Shown: positions 2,425 to 24,332 of the stretch, piece by piece
How positions within the stretch are numbered: position 1 is the first letter of the stretch
Layout: each line of letters begins with the position of its first letter
Source: a virus
Virus record (IMG/VR): IMGVR_UViG_3300017729_000035
Span: 1 to 24,905 of that record
Strand: one strand, 5' to 3'
DNA: 24,905 bases
Made by a program: the position numbers and the translations under genes
Notes under the pieces: model-generated
Databases searched by the model: none
What the model was told of the DNA's origin: nothing
What the model saw: the letters and a program-made list of their open reading frames with translations, nothing else

Positions 2425-3858
2425 ATGGCAAATGGATCATTTACTGGGAGTGCAGCGGCTTTAGCGCACTTAACTCCTAGACCAACACAAACGTTGTTTA
2501 ACGACAACTACCTGGCCCTTGGGGACATGGATTTTACACAACAATTCTTACCAGAAGTATATGAGAAAGAAGTAGAACGTTACGGAAACCGTACGATCTC
2601 TGGATTCTTACGTATGGTAGGAGCAGAAATGCCTATGGCATCTGACCAAGTAGTATGGTCTGAGCAAGGGCGTTTACACATTGCTTATGATGATGCAACT
2701 ATAGCATCAGCAACTTCAATTACAATCCCAGCTGTAGGAGGAAAAAGTAAAAACTTAATCGGACCTGGAGACACTATAGTTGTAGCCAAAGCTGATGGAT
2801 TATTAGTTGAAAAAGCATACGTTAGAGCTGTAGCAACTGCAGGAAACGGGGTAGCTACTTTAACTGTTGCAGGATACGCAGGAAACCTTACGGTTACTGG
2901 TTCTGGAAACGTGAAAGTATTCGTATACGGTTCTGAATATGCAAAAGGTACATCAAACGCAGGAACTTCTGTTGATGCCGCTTTCGAACAATTTAGTAAC
3001 AAGCCAATCATTTTACGTAACAAATACGCAGTAAGCGGATCTGATACAGCACAGATTGGATGGGTGGAAGTAACTACTGAAGCTGGAACTTCTGGATACT
3101 TGTGGTACTTGAAGTCTGAGCACGAATCTCGTATACGTTTTGAAGATCACTTAGAAATGTCTATGATTGAAGCTGAAAAAGCTGCTAACGCAATTACGCC
3201 AGCTGCTGGATTAGGAGGAGGAACTCAAATTACAGGTTCTGACGGACTTTTTGCAGCTCTTGAGAACAGAGGTCTTGTTTACACAGACGCGGATTTTGGA
3301 ACTGGAGGAGACTTAGGATTAAGCGATTTTGACGCTATCTTAGGAGAGCTTGATAAGCAAGGGGCTATCGAAGAAAATATGTTATTCTTAGATCGTTCAA
3401 CTTCTTTGGGTATTGATAATATGTTAGCTGCTCAAAATTCTTACGGAACCGGAGGAACATCTTATGGTGTATTCGAAAATTCGGAAGACATGGCACTTAA
3501 CTTAGGATTCAGTGGATTCCGTAGAGGATCTTACGATTTTTACAAGACAGATTGGAAATACTTAAACGATGCTACAACTAGAGGACTAGTTGGGGATATC
3601 GAAGGTGTGGTTGTTCCTGCTGGAACTTCAACAGTTTACGATCAAATGTTAGGTAAAAACATTTCAAGACCTTTCTTACACATCCGTTACAGATCTTCTG
3701 AAGCAGATGACAGAAAAATGAAGTCTTGGATCACGGGATCTGTAGGAGGAAACTACACAAGCGACGAGGATGCAATGAACGTTCACTTCTTATCAGAAAG
3801 ATGTTTATGTGTACAAGCGGCAAACAACTTCATATTATTGAAGAATACTGCAGCATAG
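2425..3858 (+). CDS. Major capsid protein (HK97-fold type, with beta insertion)
   Basis: This 477-residue protein forms the icosahedral shell. The N-terminal segment (residues 1-75: short Gly/Ala arm, then LPEVYEKEVERYGNRT and FLRMVGAEMP) resembles the N-arm and first helix of HK97-fold capsid proteins of environmental and Bacteroidota phages. Residues about 90-170 are a beta-rich insertion (repeated GDTIVV, KAYVRAV and VKVFVYGSEYAKGT strands) that looks like an inserted decoration domain; T7 gp10A is only 344 residues. After it comes a long acidic helix (FEDHLEMSMIEAEKAANA), the likely spine helix. Arginine is encoded by CGT about as often as AGA, unlike neighbours that use AGA almost only, which suits a very highly expressed gene. 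It is followed by a strong hairpin. Position after the scaffold and before connector genes agrees with the call. Confidence 0.9.
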   Translation: MANGSFTGSAAALAHLTPRPTQTLFNDNYLALGDMDFTQQFLPEVYEKEVERYGNRTISGFLRMVGAEMPMASDQVVWSEQGRLHIAYDDATIASATSITIPAVGGKSKNLIGPGDTIVVAKADGLLVEKAYVRAVATAGNGVATLTVAGYAGNLTVTGSGNVKVFVYGSEYAKGTSNAGTSVDAAFEQFSNKPIILRNKYAVSGSDTAQIGWVEVTTEAGTSGYLWYLKSEHESRIRFEDHLEMSMIEAEKAANAITPAAGLGGGTQITGSDGLFAALENRGLVYTDADFGTGGDLGLSDFDAILGELDKQGAIEENMLFLDRSTSLGIDNMLAAQNSYGTGGTSYGVFENSEDMALNLGFSGFRRGSYDFYKTDWKYLNDATTRGLVGDIEGVVVPAGTSTVYDQMLGKNISRPFLHIRYRSSEADDRKMKSWITGSVGGNYTSDEDAMNVHFLSERCLCVQAANNFILLKNTAA

Positions 3859-3874
3859 TAAATTAATGTAATTT

Positions 3875-3912
3875 TTACCCCTGTTACATCAACGGGGGTA
3901 ATTATTACTTTT
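3875..3912 (+). terminator. Hairpin after capsid gene, possible (leaky) terminator
   Basis: Bases 3875-3885 pair with 3891-3901 (11 pairs, one T-G wobble, loop of five, GC-rich middle CCCC/GGGG). The following stretch, ATTATTACTTTTAT, is U-rich in the transcript but not a pure U run. It starts 16 bases after the capsid stop codon. It could stop part of the transcripts, or protect the 3' end of an abundant capsid mRNA. The pairing is directly visible; its activity is inferred. Confidence 0.65.
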
Positions 3913-3938
3913 ATAAAATTATTTAATCATATTATATC

Positions 3939-4799
3939 ATGGCAAACAAGAAAAAGCCCGTAGCTAAGAAAGCTACACCACAAGAGCCTATCACTGATGA
4001 GGCACCAGTACAAATAGAAAAAGCGGAACCAGTAGCAATTAAACCTACTAAACCTGCTAAACCAACATGGGAATATAGAGACAGAACTTATGTTCTAAAG
4101 ACAGGCAAGTCTCCACTTTTATATACATTACCATCTAAGCATTCTCAAAGAAAGCCATTATTATGGTTTGATCCAGAAAAAGGATTTCAAAGAGAATTGC
4201 GCTACGCTACTAATCAGAAGTCCCCCTTTGTAGACGAGCAAAAAGGACCTGCTACATTAGGCAGAATAGCAATGAGAGATGGCATGATTAAAGTAAAAAA
4301 AGAAGATGTAGCTTTGCAAAAATTACTTTCTTTGTATCACCCGCTAAAAGATAAAATATATTACGAGTTTGACCCCGTAGAGGTTTCTGTAAATGAACTA
4401 GACTGGATCGAGTTAGAACTTGATGCGTTAACTTTAGCTAAGGATATGGAAATTGACACAGCTGAAGGAATATTAAGAGCTGAATACGGTAGTGCAGTTA
4501 ATGATTTATCATCTAGTGAATTAAAAAGAGATCTAATGATATTTGCCAAAAGGCAACCTGCATTATTTATAGAATTAGCTAATGACGACAACGTGCAACT
4601 ACGTAATGTAGGCATCAAAGCTGTAGAGGCTAGAATAATAAATTTATCCTCTGATCAAAGAACGTTCACTTATGGAGAAGGAAACAGAAAATTAATGACT
4701 GTACCTTTTGACGAACACCCATATAGTGCTTTAGCTGCATTCTTTAAGACTGACGAAGGAATGGAAGTGTATAAAGCAATATTAAAAAGACTTTATTAA
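3939..4799 (+). CDS. Virion-module protein of unknown function
   Basis: This 286-residue protein begins with a disordered Lys/Pro/Ala/Glu leader (residues 1-40, starting MANKKKPVAKKATPQEP) followed by a compact body. Residues 45-75 are beta-like (WEYRDRTYVLKTGKSPLLYT), and residues 140-230 are mostly helical, with an acidic patch ELDWIELELDALTLAKDMEI. No catalytic motif or membrane segment is seen. It sits alone between two intergenic hairpins, after the capsid gene and before the two connector genes, so a head-completion or head-associated role is the obvious guess. I do not recognise the family from sequence alone, and its expression could be set apart from its neighbours by the flanking hairpins. 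Confidence 0.85.
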   Translation: MANKKKPVAKKATPQEPITDEAPVQIEKAEPVAIKPTKPAKPTWEYRDRTYVLKTGKSPLLYTLPSKHSQRKPLLWFDPEKGFQRELRYATNQKSPFVDEQKGPATLGRIAMRDGMIKVKKEDVALQKLLSLYHPLKDKIYYEFDPVEVSVNELDWIELELDALTLAKDMEIDTAEGILRAEYGSAVNDLSSSELKRDLMIFAKRQPALFIELANDDNVQLRNVGIKAVEARIINLSSDQRTFTYGEGNRKLMTVPFDEHPYSALAAFFKTDEGMEVYKAILKRLY

Positions 4800-4806
4800 G
4801 TCACTT

Positions 4807-4848
4807 TTATAGTAGCTAGGCTGCTTAACGGTGGCCTAACTATTATAA
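4807..4848 (+). promoter_or_regulatory. Long intergenic hairpin without U-tract
   Basis: Bases 4807-4824 pair with 4831-4848: 18 positions, of which only one (C4816/A4839) does not pair and three are G-T wobbles, with a six-base loop TTAACG. What follows in the + strand is AT- then A-rich (ATAATAAAAAAAG), not T-rich, so it is not a standard intrinsic terminator in the direction of the genes. It ends 17 bases before the ATG at 4865. Likely roles are an RNase processing site, a 3'-end stabiliser for the upstream mRNA, or control of translation of the next gene. The structure is visible; the role is inferred. Confidence 0.7.
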
Positions 4849-4864
4849 TAATAAAAAAAGAAAA

Positions 4865-5554
4865 ATGAGCGTAAATATAAATACTGTTTATCAAAGAGTA
4901 CTAGCGGTACTTAACAAAGAACAACGAGGGTATGTTACGCCTCAAGAATTTAATTTGTTCGCAAACCAAGCACAATTGGATTTGTTTGAACAATATTTTT
5001 ATGACATTAACCAATTCGGTAGAATACCAGGAAACGAAACCGAATATTCAGATATGGTAGATCTTTTAGAAAAAAAACTAGCTATATTTGAAACATCTGC
5101 AGTCCTGGTCGCTTCAGCTGGTAAATTCACTTTGCCTTCAAGCATGTATAAACTAGGGGCTATTTTATATAATAATATAGAAGTAGAAAGAATTACTCCT
5201 AAAGAATGGATATACATAAACCAATCTCCTTTAACTAAACCAACCAACGCTAGACCTATATATAAAACCGCAGGGACTAATCTTATCGAAGCAAAAGGTT
5301 CTGCTACCCTGACTTCCGGAGTAAGTGCACAATATGTTAAAAAACCAGCCACTGTAATATGGGCTCACAAAACGTTATTTAATGAGCCTTTGTACGATCC
5401 TGCAAACAGCGTTAATTTTGAACTAGATGTTTCTGAAGAAACTGAGCTAGTTATAAAAATATTAGAGTTATGTGGCATATTAATAAAAGATCTAGGGTTA
5501 TATCAAATATTTGACAAAGAAGATCAAGAAACAATACAACAACAAAAATCATAA
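4865..5554 (+). CDS. Head-to-tail connector / tail ring protein (gp11- or adaptor-like)
   Basis: This 229-residue protein opens with a helical segment (INTVYQRVLAVLNKEQRGYV, then EFNLFANQAQLDLFEQYF) that matches the start typical of adaptor and ring proteins of podovirus-like phages from Bacteroidota and aquatic samples. The middle (residues 80-175) is beta-rich with short strands about LPSSMYKLGAILYNNIEVERI, and the end is a helix with ETELVIKILELCGILIKDLG. It starts right after the long hairpin, and its stop is three bases before the next gene, so the two are surely co-translated. Position after the capsid block and before a nozzle-like giant corresponds to T7 gp11 or P22 gp4, which seal the portal. 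The family assignment is from recollection of the pattern, not from a search. Confidence 0.65.
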   Translation: MSVNINTVYQRVLAVLNKEQRGYVTPQEFNLFANQAQLDLFEQYFYDINQFGRIPGNETEYSDMVDLLEKKLAIFETSAVLVASAGKFTLPSSMYKLGAILYNNIEVERITPKEWIYINQSPLTKPTNARPIYKTAGTNLIEAKGSATLTSGVSAQYVKKPATVIWAHKTLFNEPLYDPANSVNFELDVSEETELVIKILELCGILIKDLGLYQIFDKEDQETIQQQKS

Positions 5555-15923: not shown

Positions 15924-18900
15924 ATGGACGAATTAAATGATATTGTACAAAATATGGTTGCCGCTGGGGAGAGCGAAGAAAATATAGCCCTTGTAATAAA
16001 ATCATATACGGGAAAGACAAACGACTCTGCGAATGTGGATCCAAGTGTGGAGTCAGACACTACGGGATCTGGATTGGACGATGGTTTTTCGGAGTCTCAA
16101 GAAAAAGATACGGAAATTGAAAGATTATTCGGTAAGAACGAAGTTACCGATTTTTTCGGAGATATAGCTAGAGCTTGGCAATCGGGTACAGCCCAGGGAA
16201 GATCTTTAGATTCTGCTATAGAAATATTTAAGAGTGGCAAAGACATGACTGAAGATCAGTATGTTGAATTTGTTGAGCAAGCTCGAGCTATGGAAGATGC
16301 TGGCCAAACAGATGAAATGATAGAATTTGGCAAGCAATATGCTAAAGATAAAGAAGAATATGGAAGTGTAGGTGGGTTTTTTACAAGTTGGTGGAAAAAT
16401 CCAACAGTGATGACACAATACACTGCACAATCATTAGCCAATATGGCTTCTAGTGCAAGAAACAGTGAAGAAGCTGCTTTAATGGCTGCTGGAGGCGTTG
16501 CAACTGGAGCAGGAATTGGTTCTGCTATTCCAGTTGTTGGAACTATTTTAGGAGGACTATCAGGCGGGATGGGAGCTTTGTCTGGAACTATGGAAGTAGG
16601 TTTTACTACTGCTCAGTTATTACAAGAAGCTGCAATAGACGCGGGTAAAGATTGGAATACTATGTCCAACAAAGAGCGAATAGACTGGACTAAAGAAGTT
16701 GTAAATAATGAAGAACTATATAACGATCTAACTAACAAAGCTTTAAGAAGAGGCATCGCTATTGGGTCTATAGATGCAGTTACCGGAGCTTTGACTGGTG
16801 GCATAGGTGGAGCTGCTAAAAAAGGTGTTGCTGCAACAACTAAAAGTGCTCTTGCTGGAGCTGCTGAAGTTGCTGCTGTTGCTGCTACTGAAACAGCCGG
16901 AGGATTGGCTAGTGAAATAGCTGGACAGTTAGCCGCTGAACAAGAATTAGATGCTCAAGAAATACTTACTGAAGGATTTGCAGATAAAACGTTTACACTT
17001 GTAAAGATAGCTAGAGGAGGTTTAAAAGGTCCTAAGTATACATTAGCAGGTGAAAAAATGAATGGCAAAAGATTTAGAGAGGCTGTTCAAACAATGGACG
17101 ATGCTACCGTTGCTACCGTGGATTTTGAAATATCTAATGATCCTTTAATGGAGAAGATAATTCAGAACAGAAAACAAGATATAAAAATAGATCAAGAGAT
17201 CGATGCCACTATAAGCGGAGTTGATGATAGAGCTGAAATAATTAAGCTACAAAAAAAATTAAACAAATTAAAAGGGAACGACAGTGTAACTGCGAGCAAT
17301 ACTAAAAAAGAAATACGATCTCAAATAACTGAAATACAAGATAAGTATAAAGGCTCTGAAGTTGATGTAACTATTAAGCAACGCCAGGAAGCTGTAGCTA
17401 AGGCGGTTGATACTAAGTTTGAAGAAAACTTTAATAAATACTATAAAGGGGCTAAGCAAGCAGCTAAAGATTTAGGTTTTAAAAGTACACAAGGCCCTAA
17501 AATTTACAAAACAACGAAAGGGTTTATATCTGCTATTGCTAAAGCCGAAAACCTGTCATTTGATGAAGCTCAAGAAAAAGCTAAAGGAGCTGATGGTGTA
17601 TTCTTAGGGGAAGGTATTATGTTTATTGATAAACAAAAAGCTAAAGAAGTAGGCGCTATTACGGGTGCTTCTCATGAGCTATTACACCCTGTGTTTAATG
17701 CAGCAATTGGTGACGCCAAAGCTCAAGGCAAAATAGTTAGGGAGTTTAAGAAAGCAATGACCTCTAAACAGAAAAGATTTGTTAGAAATAAACTTAAAGC
17801 TAATGTAAAACCAGAAAACTGGAATACAGAATACTTAAATTACTTCTCCGATGCAATCCTAAAGAATGAAATTAACTACGATAAAACCCTCTTTGAAAAG
17901 CTAAAAGATGTTGTCTTAAGGGTGCTCAAAGGAGCAGGTTTTGATAATGTTTCTTTTGATAGTGGTAGAGAAGTATATAACTTTTTAAAAGAATACAATA
18001 CCAGCTTAAAAGAAACTGGGCAGGTAAGTGAAAAAGCAGTTGAAGCTATTAAAGCCGCTGAGCAAGCTAAAGGCATAAAGGTAGCAGAGGTAGGTAGAGT
18101 AGGAGATGTACAAAAATCTGTTAACCAAGAAATACTAGATTTAACAGACGCATTAGACGCGGCGGAAGACGCTTATGCTGCGGATCCAAATAATCCTACA
18201 TTGGAAAAAAATGTAGAGTTAGCTGAAAAAGCTTTAGACGAAGCTGAAGAGAGAGCTTTATCTGGCACTCCAAAACCTAAAGTTGTAGCTCCTAAACCTA
18301 AGAAAGAGGTTAAGAAAGAAGCTAAGAAAGAGGATAAGCCTAAGGCTAAAAAAGAAACAACTAGCAAGCAAAAAGAACTTAATGAAAAAGTTGATAAGCT
18401 AGCTGGTAAAAAAGACGAAGACGGTAATTACGTAATGTCTAAAAAAGAATGGGATAGAACTGGCATAGGTAAAGCTAGTCAATCCATTATTTATGGAGAC
18501 ATATTAAATCCGTTAATAACAAGAGGTATAACGGGAGAAGGAGTACAGGGAAAGTCTTTGCAAGACTTCATACAGGCTGTTAAAGATGAGTTACTTTCTG
18601 TGCTTATGAATTTTAATCCTGAGAAAAACAACAGTTTAATAGGGTGGATTAATAGTCAATTACGTTTTAAGAAAGGTAATGTACTAAAAAGATTCAAAAA
18701 GGAGGCTGATCTTGGGGGTAAATCTTTAGATGTAGAAGCTGGAGAAACAGGTTTTGCGGGTAATATATCGGGAGATGCAGGTGTTATCAGAAACTTTGCA
18801 GATGAAAAACAAATTGCGCCAGATAAACTCGTAAAAGCATCGAAAGTAATAACTCCTAAAGTCAGGGCGGACTTAGCAAACATGCTAAAGAAATGGGCTA

Positions 18901-24300: not shown

Positions 24301-24332
24301 AAAGCCGCTACAGTTAAGTAACGGCTTTTTTT
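24301..24332 (+). terminator. Intrinsic terminator ending the late operon, likely bidirectional
   Basis: AAAGCCG (24301-24307) pairs with CGGCTTT (24322-24328), and inside it TAC (24309-24311) pairs with GTA (24318-24320) around one mismatch. A run of seven T (24326-24332) follows on the + strand. On the - strand the same stem is followed by TTTAATTTTAAT. It lies between two converging genes, so it can end transcription from both sides. Confidence 0.88.

Follow-up and report, generated by a model that had tools for sequence, protein, structure and literature searches.

A predicted RNA hairpin conserved between capsid and tail-ring genes in a lineage of uncultured phages

Intercistronic hairpins and the junction at 4807-4848

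Hairpins between cistrons are found in several described systems. In the podovirus T7, RNase III processing sites are hairpins between cistrons that carry a constant internal loop, while in filamentous phages a terminator between genes VIII and III, after the major coat gene, lowers downstream expression. The hairpin of the Rhodobacter pufBALMX operon lies right after its upstream cistron. According to PMC11354728, the stoichiometry of the puf proteins is set by ribonucleases and by the position of RNA-stabilising elements.

Here, we analysed a hairpin at positions 4807-4848 of the window, which is a whole linear virus record of 24,905 bases from a marine phage. Like the puf hairpin, it sits right after the upstream cistron, between genes that would be needed at unequal levels in one operon, although its sequence and genes are unrelated and the element is described here by sequence comparison. 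It shares the intercistronic position in a podovirus with the T7 sites but not their constant internal loop. As with the filamentous phage terminator, the hairpin follows a major coat gene and would lower downstream expression; that terminator ends transcripts, whereas the window hairpin has no U-tract. The same two-gene border in the cultured phages elemo, phi38:1, Calle_2, Gundel_1 and ctfjg026 also carries a hairpin soon after the homologue of the upstream gene, and Panino, phi18:3 and phi46:3 have this border with inserted genes. The cultured phages differ in having a shorter GC stem, a U-rich tail and a promoter motif, whereas the window has a longer stem and neither of the other two. The features of the window are:

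2425-3858, plus strand: capsid gene (phrog_13704, head and packaging, E 6.3e-95; family label 'virion structural protein')
3868-3908, plus strand: post-capsid hairpin, weakly terminator-like; its core (3875-3901) sits on a basal stem of GUAAU/AUUAC, and a short U-rich tail follows
3939-4799, plus strand: 286-aa gene of unknown function with a hairpin on each side (phrog_34748)
4789-4802, plus strand: possible 5-bp mini hairpin over the 286-aa gene's stop codon, pairing 4789-4793 to 4798-4802
4807-4848, plus strand: predicted conserved intercistronic RNA hairpin (5' arm 4807-4825; loop 4826-4829, UAAC; 3' arm 4830-4848), with a core at 4817-4838 and an AU-rich basal stem formed by 4807-4815 with 4840-4848
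4849-4864, plus strand: A-rich unpaired spacer of 16 nt, TAATAAAAAAAGAAAA
4865-5554, plus strand: 229-aa tail ring protein, first gene 3' of the hairpin (phrog_14543, virion structural protein; Foldseek)
24304-24332, no strand assigned: control, a hairpin resembling an intrinsic terminator, with U7, where two genes of this phage converge (scores +20.0 and +14.6)

The gene order is portal, a 378-aa protein, capsid, the 286-aa unknown, two virion structural proteins and an 1846-aa protein. The 378-aa protein has no clear family and is perhaps a scaffold, and the product of 2425-3858 is named as the major capsid protein on the grounds of position and family. Structural modelling of the 229-aa protein (pLDDT 72.9) gave a best Foldseek match to 7qoj_E of the phicrAss001 tail barrel (E 2.8e-7, probability 1.00, TM 0.61), and the 1846-aa protein matched the crassvirus muzzle C-terminal domain at E 1.6e-4 and 22.5 bits, under the curated cut-off of 27. 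The hairpin therefore divides a capsid side, with the capsid and 286-aa genes, from a tail-barrel side. A PDB fold search with the model of the 286-aa protein (pLDDT 69.8) was empty at E<=0.001, and profile searches with the sequences of this and the 229-aa protein gave no PDB chain at E<=1. Homologues occur in named phages of Flavobacterium, Cellulophaga, Maribacter and Tenacibaculum, so the host of the window phage is likely a member of the Bacteroidota, judging from homologues whose ring proteins are only 20-31% identical among the records listed. One relative (L172) encodes a GroEL-like chaperonin (L172:13419-14972; phrog_5725, E 4.8e-137).

The 65-nt gap between the 286-aa and 229-aa genes holds the hairpin 7 nt past the stop codon and 16 nt before the ATG. 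Its 18 pairs, interrupted by the single mismatch C4816/A4839, comprise a core of 9 pairs set on an extra AU-rich basal stem of 9 pairs. The region 4780-4880 folds at -24.5 kcal/mol, compared to -13.1 (sd 2.5) for shuffles (z -4.56; 0/200 shuffles equally stable), and the opposite strand folds worse (-18.0, z -2.29; 3/200 shuffles equally stable). The preliminary description had placed an 18-position intergenic hairpin at exactly these coordinates. It had also called the stem longer than a terminator needs, which is fair given the added basal stem, and the sequence 3' of it A-rich without a U-tract; indeed, no two adjacent U occur within the 16 nt 3' of the stem.

Rfam 15 gave 0 matches in the window, and three matches in 3840-4900 were all far below the gathering score, at which the hairpin belongs to no known RNA family in Rfam. 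The titles and opening abstract lines of the open-licence papers listed in the searches did not describe the element, and similar DNA in phage records was limited to short matches in 21 records, 0 of which covered 80%.

Conservation and pairing among relatives

To the window we added the best 80 of at least 596 and the best 80 of 262 confirmed relatives from IMG/VR, two lists that share contigs; as these are the closest of several hundred relatives, deeper variation is under-sampled. Four of the 160 loci (L119, L132, L139 and L145) had no readable downstream start and were dropped, leaving 156 loci and the window, or 157 junctions, 76 of them distinct. A hairpin of at least 12 pairs was present in 75/76 distinct junctions and one of at least 16 pairs in 60/76, while 14/76 had stems of 12-14 pairs and L121 had 9. 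Together with the shuffle z, this rules out a chance fold as the origin of the hairpin. The distance of the stem from the preceding stop codon (median 7 nt, quartiles 6-7) is shorter and varies less than that from the ATG (median 16 nt, quartiles 13-18).

Hairpins of quite different sequence occupy the same place in L059, L058, L054 and the L040 group. Another of these is a UUCG-loop hairpin in L045, L115, L117, L120 and L121, where a small frame is inserted behind the hairpin, and the hairpin stays by the stop codon of the 286-aa gene. The small frame is Cys-rich (in L045 at 3837-3998, 53 aa, KGLGDTIEA...CGCSKRKEYLNNKFPY), and a similar one lies elsewhere in G003 (L172 within 17621-17833); it is perhaps a duplicated or mobile tiny gene. 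In the distant L182, whose ring protein is 36% identical, the basal UUAUAG/CUAUAA is kept and the apical stem differs. The L182 contig is titled Maricaulis sp. (Alphaproteobacteria) and carries this phage module; mis-binning is likely.

A model of the hairpin (R1) found one strong site per record in 18/20 long relatives (64.8-94.8 bits) and a weak single site at the same junction in the remaining two (31.4 and 24.6 bits). Its other listed matches were on the opposite strand of the same sites (at most 41.6 bits) or at two places elsewhere (22.1 and 21.1 bits). This single-site pattern in the long relatives rules out a dispersed repeat. In the nine cultured-phage loci L161-L169, the model matched nothing at E<=5.

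The preliminary description had suggested looking for compensatory base changes in related phages, and the outcome was largely positive. Alignment A1 comprised 59 of the 72 short distinct junctions. Those with other hairpin sequences were left out (L030, L034, L038, L039, L040, L042, L047, L054, L056, L058, L059, L060 and L075), as were four junctions over 200 nt. RNAalifold predicted 13 pairs on A1 and the window's own fold was used for the counts, which thus lean to the window's structure; controls with the pairing slid along the alignment still scored lower, at most 0.090. Of the main-stem cells, 94.1% are paired. When the mini hairpin is counted with the main stem, covariation scores 0.234 compared to 0.182 (sd 0.007) in shuffles, 0/500 of which were as high, and 43 cells were changed on both sides compared to 19.2. 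Two of the five measures fail to beat the shuffles: pairs with two-sided change (6 compared to 4.6; 105/500 shuffles reach 6) and pair types (26 compared to 24.2; 74/500 reach 26) show no excess. The variable pairs of the basal stem (columns 35/68, 37/66 and 38/65) remain paired.

On a ring-protein tree, built with FastTree only and with long branches flagged, 143 branches carried changes in the main stem. Pairing was kept on 101 of these (10 two-sided, 91 one-sided), broken on 29 and restored on 8, and 200 random re-pairings kept on average 1.2 two-sided and 34.6 one-sided. Two of the tree counts weigh the other way: the two-sided maximum over the re-pairings was 10, equal to that observed, and the 29 breaking branches compare to a shuffled mean of 23.1. 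Since pairing-preserving changes were found, lack of covariation, which the preliminary description had named as refuting it, is not what the relatives display. The mini hairpin at 4789-4802 pairs in 69.6% of A1 cells (columns 11/24 AU:22 GC:16 GU:4 other:12), with exchange of G-C and A-U among relatives; its tree support is weak (44 changed branches, with pairing kept on 13, broken on 16 and restored on 13).

The main-stem pairs comprise 863 Watson-Crick, 176 G/U, 34 A/C and 31 other combinations, and the coding strand folds better than its complement in 70/72 short distinct junctions and 18/18 junction clusters. Because G/U far exceeds A/C and the complement is less stable, the conserved form is a coding-strand RNA structure, where it is the pairing that is conserved and an action is not implied. 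A minus-strand RNA or DNA palindrome is disfavoured by the same two observations. From these comparisons, the hairpin is a lineage-wide RNA element, which adds a conserved phage RNA without an Rfam match.

Proposed segmental mRNA stability and the rival of possible leaky termination

Capsid and tail-ring proteins are expected to be needed in unequal dosage, as their copy numbers differ in phicrAss001, where PMC10172136 gives nine capsid-protein copies per asymmetric unit and dodecameric tail rings. We tentatively read the hairpin as an intercistronic element by which, as in the puf operon, parts of a single late mRNA come to differ in stability, and give this reading a little less than even weight. 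RNA polymerase would mostly read through the hairpin into the tail-ring genes, and the long mRNA would then be cleaved, possibly by a nearby endonuclease cut, or decay from 3' to 5', with the stable hairpin acting as the protected 3' end of the capsid/286 segment. That segment would outlast the downstream part and yield more protein than the ring genes. That the element acts at the upstream segment's 3' end is suggested by the hairpin hugging the upstream stop codon even where a frame is inserted. The element has same-strand neighbours and no TAnnTTTG in the junction and may lie inside a single transcription unit, and its conserved pairing is that of coding-strand RNA, as a puf-type hairpin would have.

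A close rival is a leaky intrinsic terminator, or attenuator: transcription would stop in part in the AU-rich 3' arm, and fewer transcripts would reach the tail genes. We consider this a real possibility, if a somewhat doubtful one. The window hairpin has the stable stem and short loop of an intrinsic terminator but no U-tract right after the stem, and it is absent from the 18 terminator-like sites called in a scan. By a terminator score of the d'Aubenton-Carafa type, with the best sub-hairpin chosen, it reached -13.5, under the threshold of zero, and the clade median was -4.6. With the best sub-hairpin picked in this way, 31/72 short clade junctions nevertheless lie above zero, and L044 (+43.1), L042 (+33.2), L058 (+27.7) and L078 (+24.0), which have U-rich tails, may carry a standard terminator. 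In the window, the basal stem pairs where the U-tract would sit, its variable pairs remain paired among the relatives, and the same phage has the U7 terminator-like control between convergent genes, all of which count against attenuation. The window hairpin itself is, on these features, predicted not to be a standard terminator.

Attenuation draws some support from the post-capsid hairpin, which folds at -21.4 (z -3.72), has UUUUAU directly 3' and scores +11.4. The preliminary description had proposed that the two hairpins isolate the 286-residue gene. Both are real and they flank it in 155/157 loci (at least 10 pairs upstream and at least 12 downstream), with a hairpin of at least 10 pairs in 85/86 distinct gaps between the capsid and 286-aa genes, but the two are not equivalent, because the post-capsid one has the UUUUAU tail and a weak terminator score. 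In the structural operon, the two gaps flanking the 286-aa gene are alone among the plus-strand ones shorter than 100 nt in folding below -8 kcal/mol (2/4 such gaps in the window, 2/7 in the late stretch of G003 and 2/9 in G001). Several gaps over 100 nt fold too, at -14 to -56 kcal/mol in branched structures, and look like missed coding sequence. A leader like TATTTAATYATATTATATC immediately 5' of the ATG of the 286-aa gene (window 3920-3938) recurs in relatives and is a possible promoter or translation signal. Allowing 3 mismatches or fewer, the window and L173 each have a single copy, in matching positions, and L172 has one at a different place.

Leaky termination also draws on the ten cultured phage records examined, out of 79-85 with homologues. 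In the eight that were scored, the junction hairpins are all terminator-like (8/8, +29.6 to +57.1). The tail is a run of eight U in elemo, ctfjg026 and phi18:3; Panino has six U, Gundel_1 four, and phi38:1 and Calle_2 have U4-C-U6. A weakened terminator is the simplest ancestry for the window hairpin, given that its counterpart is terminator-like in the eight cultured relatives scored. All ten cultured loci also have TAnnTTTG at 23-39 nt before the ring ATG. This motif is the host-type promoter consensus, for a window host that is itself predicted. The ten represent about six lineages (ctfjg026; elemo; phi38:1 with Calle_2; Gundel_1; Panino; phi18:3 with phi46:3), and in Panino, phi18:3 and phi46:3 the motif sits behind the inserted genes. 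The inserts are accessory genes (L165 4922-6704, L166 4923-7388 and L162 8306-9409, in phi18:3, phi46:3 and Panino, respectively). The motif occurs twice in PMC6847099.

In the window's clade, TAnnTTTG was found in 0/76 distinct junctions, so that after a terminator no host-type promoter motif would restart transcription. Read-through should therefore feed the tail genes, barring an unrecognised promoter type; a phage-type promoter of such a kind could lie in the junction, which counts against segmental stability. A sigma-70 type scan gave 57 sites compared to 50.3 in shuffles and was not used. The cultured relatives would achieve the same dosage step by a terminator followed by a new promoter, and the presence at their junction of both a promoter motif and a hairpin of terminator type fits a dosage that is separate for the two sides. 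This partly supports the preliminary description, in which protein ratios would be controlled by mRNA processing or translation. The same gene border seems to have been solved in two ways: the cultured phages examined use terminator and promoter, and a large set of uncultured relatives uses a hairpin that lacks a U-tract. The border offers a natural experiment in the setting of structural protein ratios by phages, and it cautions that hairpins after capsid genes are not all terminators.

Cleavage, translation and DNA-level readings

Another reading is a dedicated cleavage site, at which a double-strand RNase, either RNase III of the host or a factor of the phage, would cut the stem and part the capsid and tail messages. 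The 60/76 distinct junctions with at least 16 pairs would suit such an enzyme, as would the basal UUAUAG/CUAUAA that persists in L182 under another apical stem. Set against the about two turns of duplex of an RNase III site, the window has 18 pairs, L121 has 9 and the others have 12-25, including those with only 12-14, and no constant internal loop of the T7 kind was seen in the stem; we regard this reading as improbable. More speculatively, and with a probability that we put low though above that of cleavage alone, the basal UUAUAG/CUAUAA may be recognised by a specific RNA-binding factor or nuclease, of the host or of the phage, that sets the capsid-to-tail ratio after transcription, in a lineage that replaced a terminator-promoter boundary. 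If true, the factor-read basal stem would represent a new cis-regulatory RNA family in uncultured marine phages of Bacteroidetes.

Translation control, which the preliminary description had also put forward, fared less well. Here, in acting on the ring gene, the hairpin would shield its start region or be bound by a protein. The stem does end 16 nt short of the ATG, and PMC6847099 describes F. johnsoniae translation as responsive to structure close to the start. The start codon is left free in 72/72 short distinct junctions, however, with the stem 8-25 nt away, and in loci with the inserted small frame the hairpin's place follows the upstream stop rather than the ring start, making this reading quite unlikely. 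A DNA-level palindrome (binding site, cruciform, origin or packaging signal) is the least plausible explanation and we give it hardly any weight: the basal arms, TTATAGT and ACTATAA, show strong conservation and symmetry, and resemble half of a separate palindromic element, perhaps by chance, but the abundant G/U pairs break DNA symmetry while keeping RNA pairing, and the complement nearly always folds worse.

That separate element is a recurring, imperfect palindrome of about 40 bp, of the type GACATTAGC - TATATATA - AGTAACAGGCTATTGTC, which lies near the starts of gene runs. The pattern was not found in the window, and a stricter version of it found nothing. It occurs at:

L172, about 6275 (plus strand)
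G003, about 61265 (minus strand)
G001, about 40775 (minus strand)
L044, about 2409 (minus strand)
L045, 2899; L052, 3046; L062, 3054; L115, 3734
L110, L111, L113, L114, L117, L119, L120 and L121, about 3950

The palindrome is a candidate phage promoter or regulator site. In some phages it sits between the post-capsid hairpin and the 286-aa gene, and its right half resembles the 5' arm of the window hairpin.
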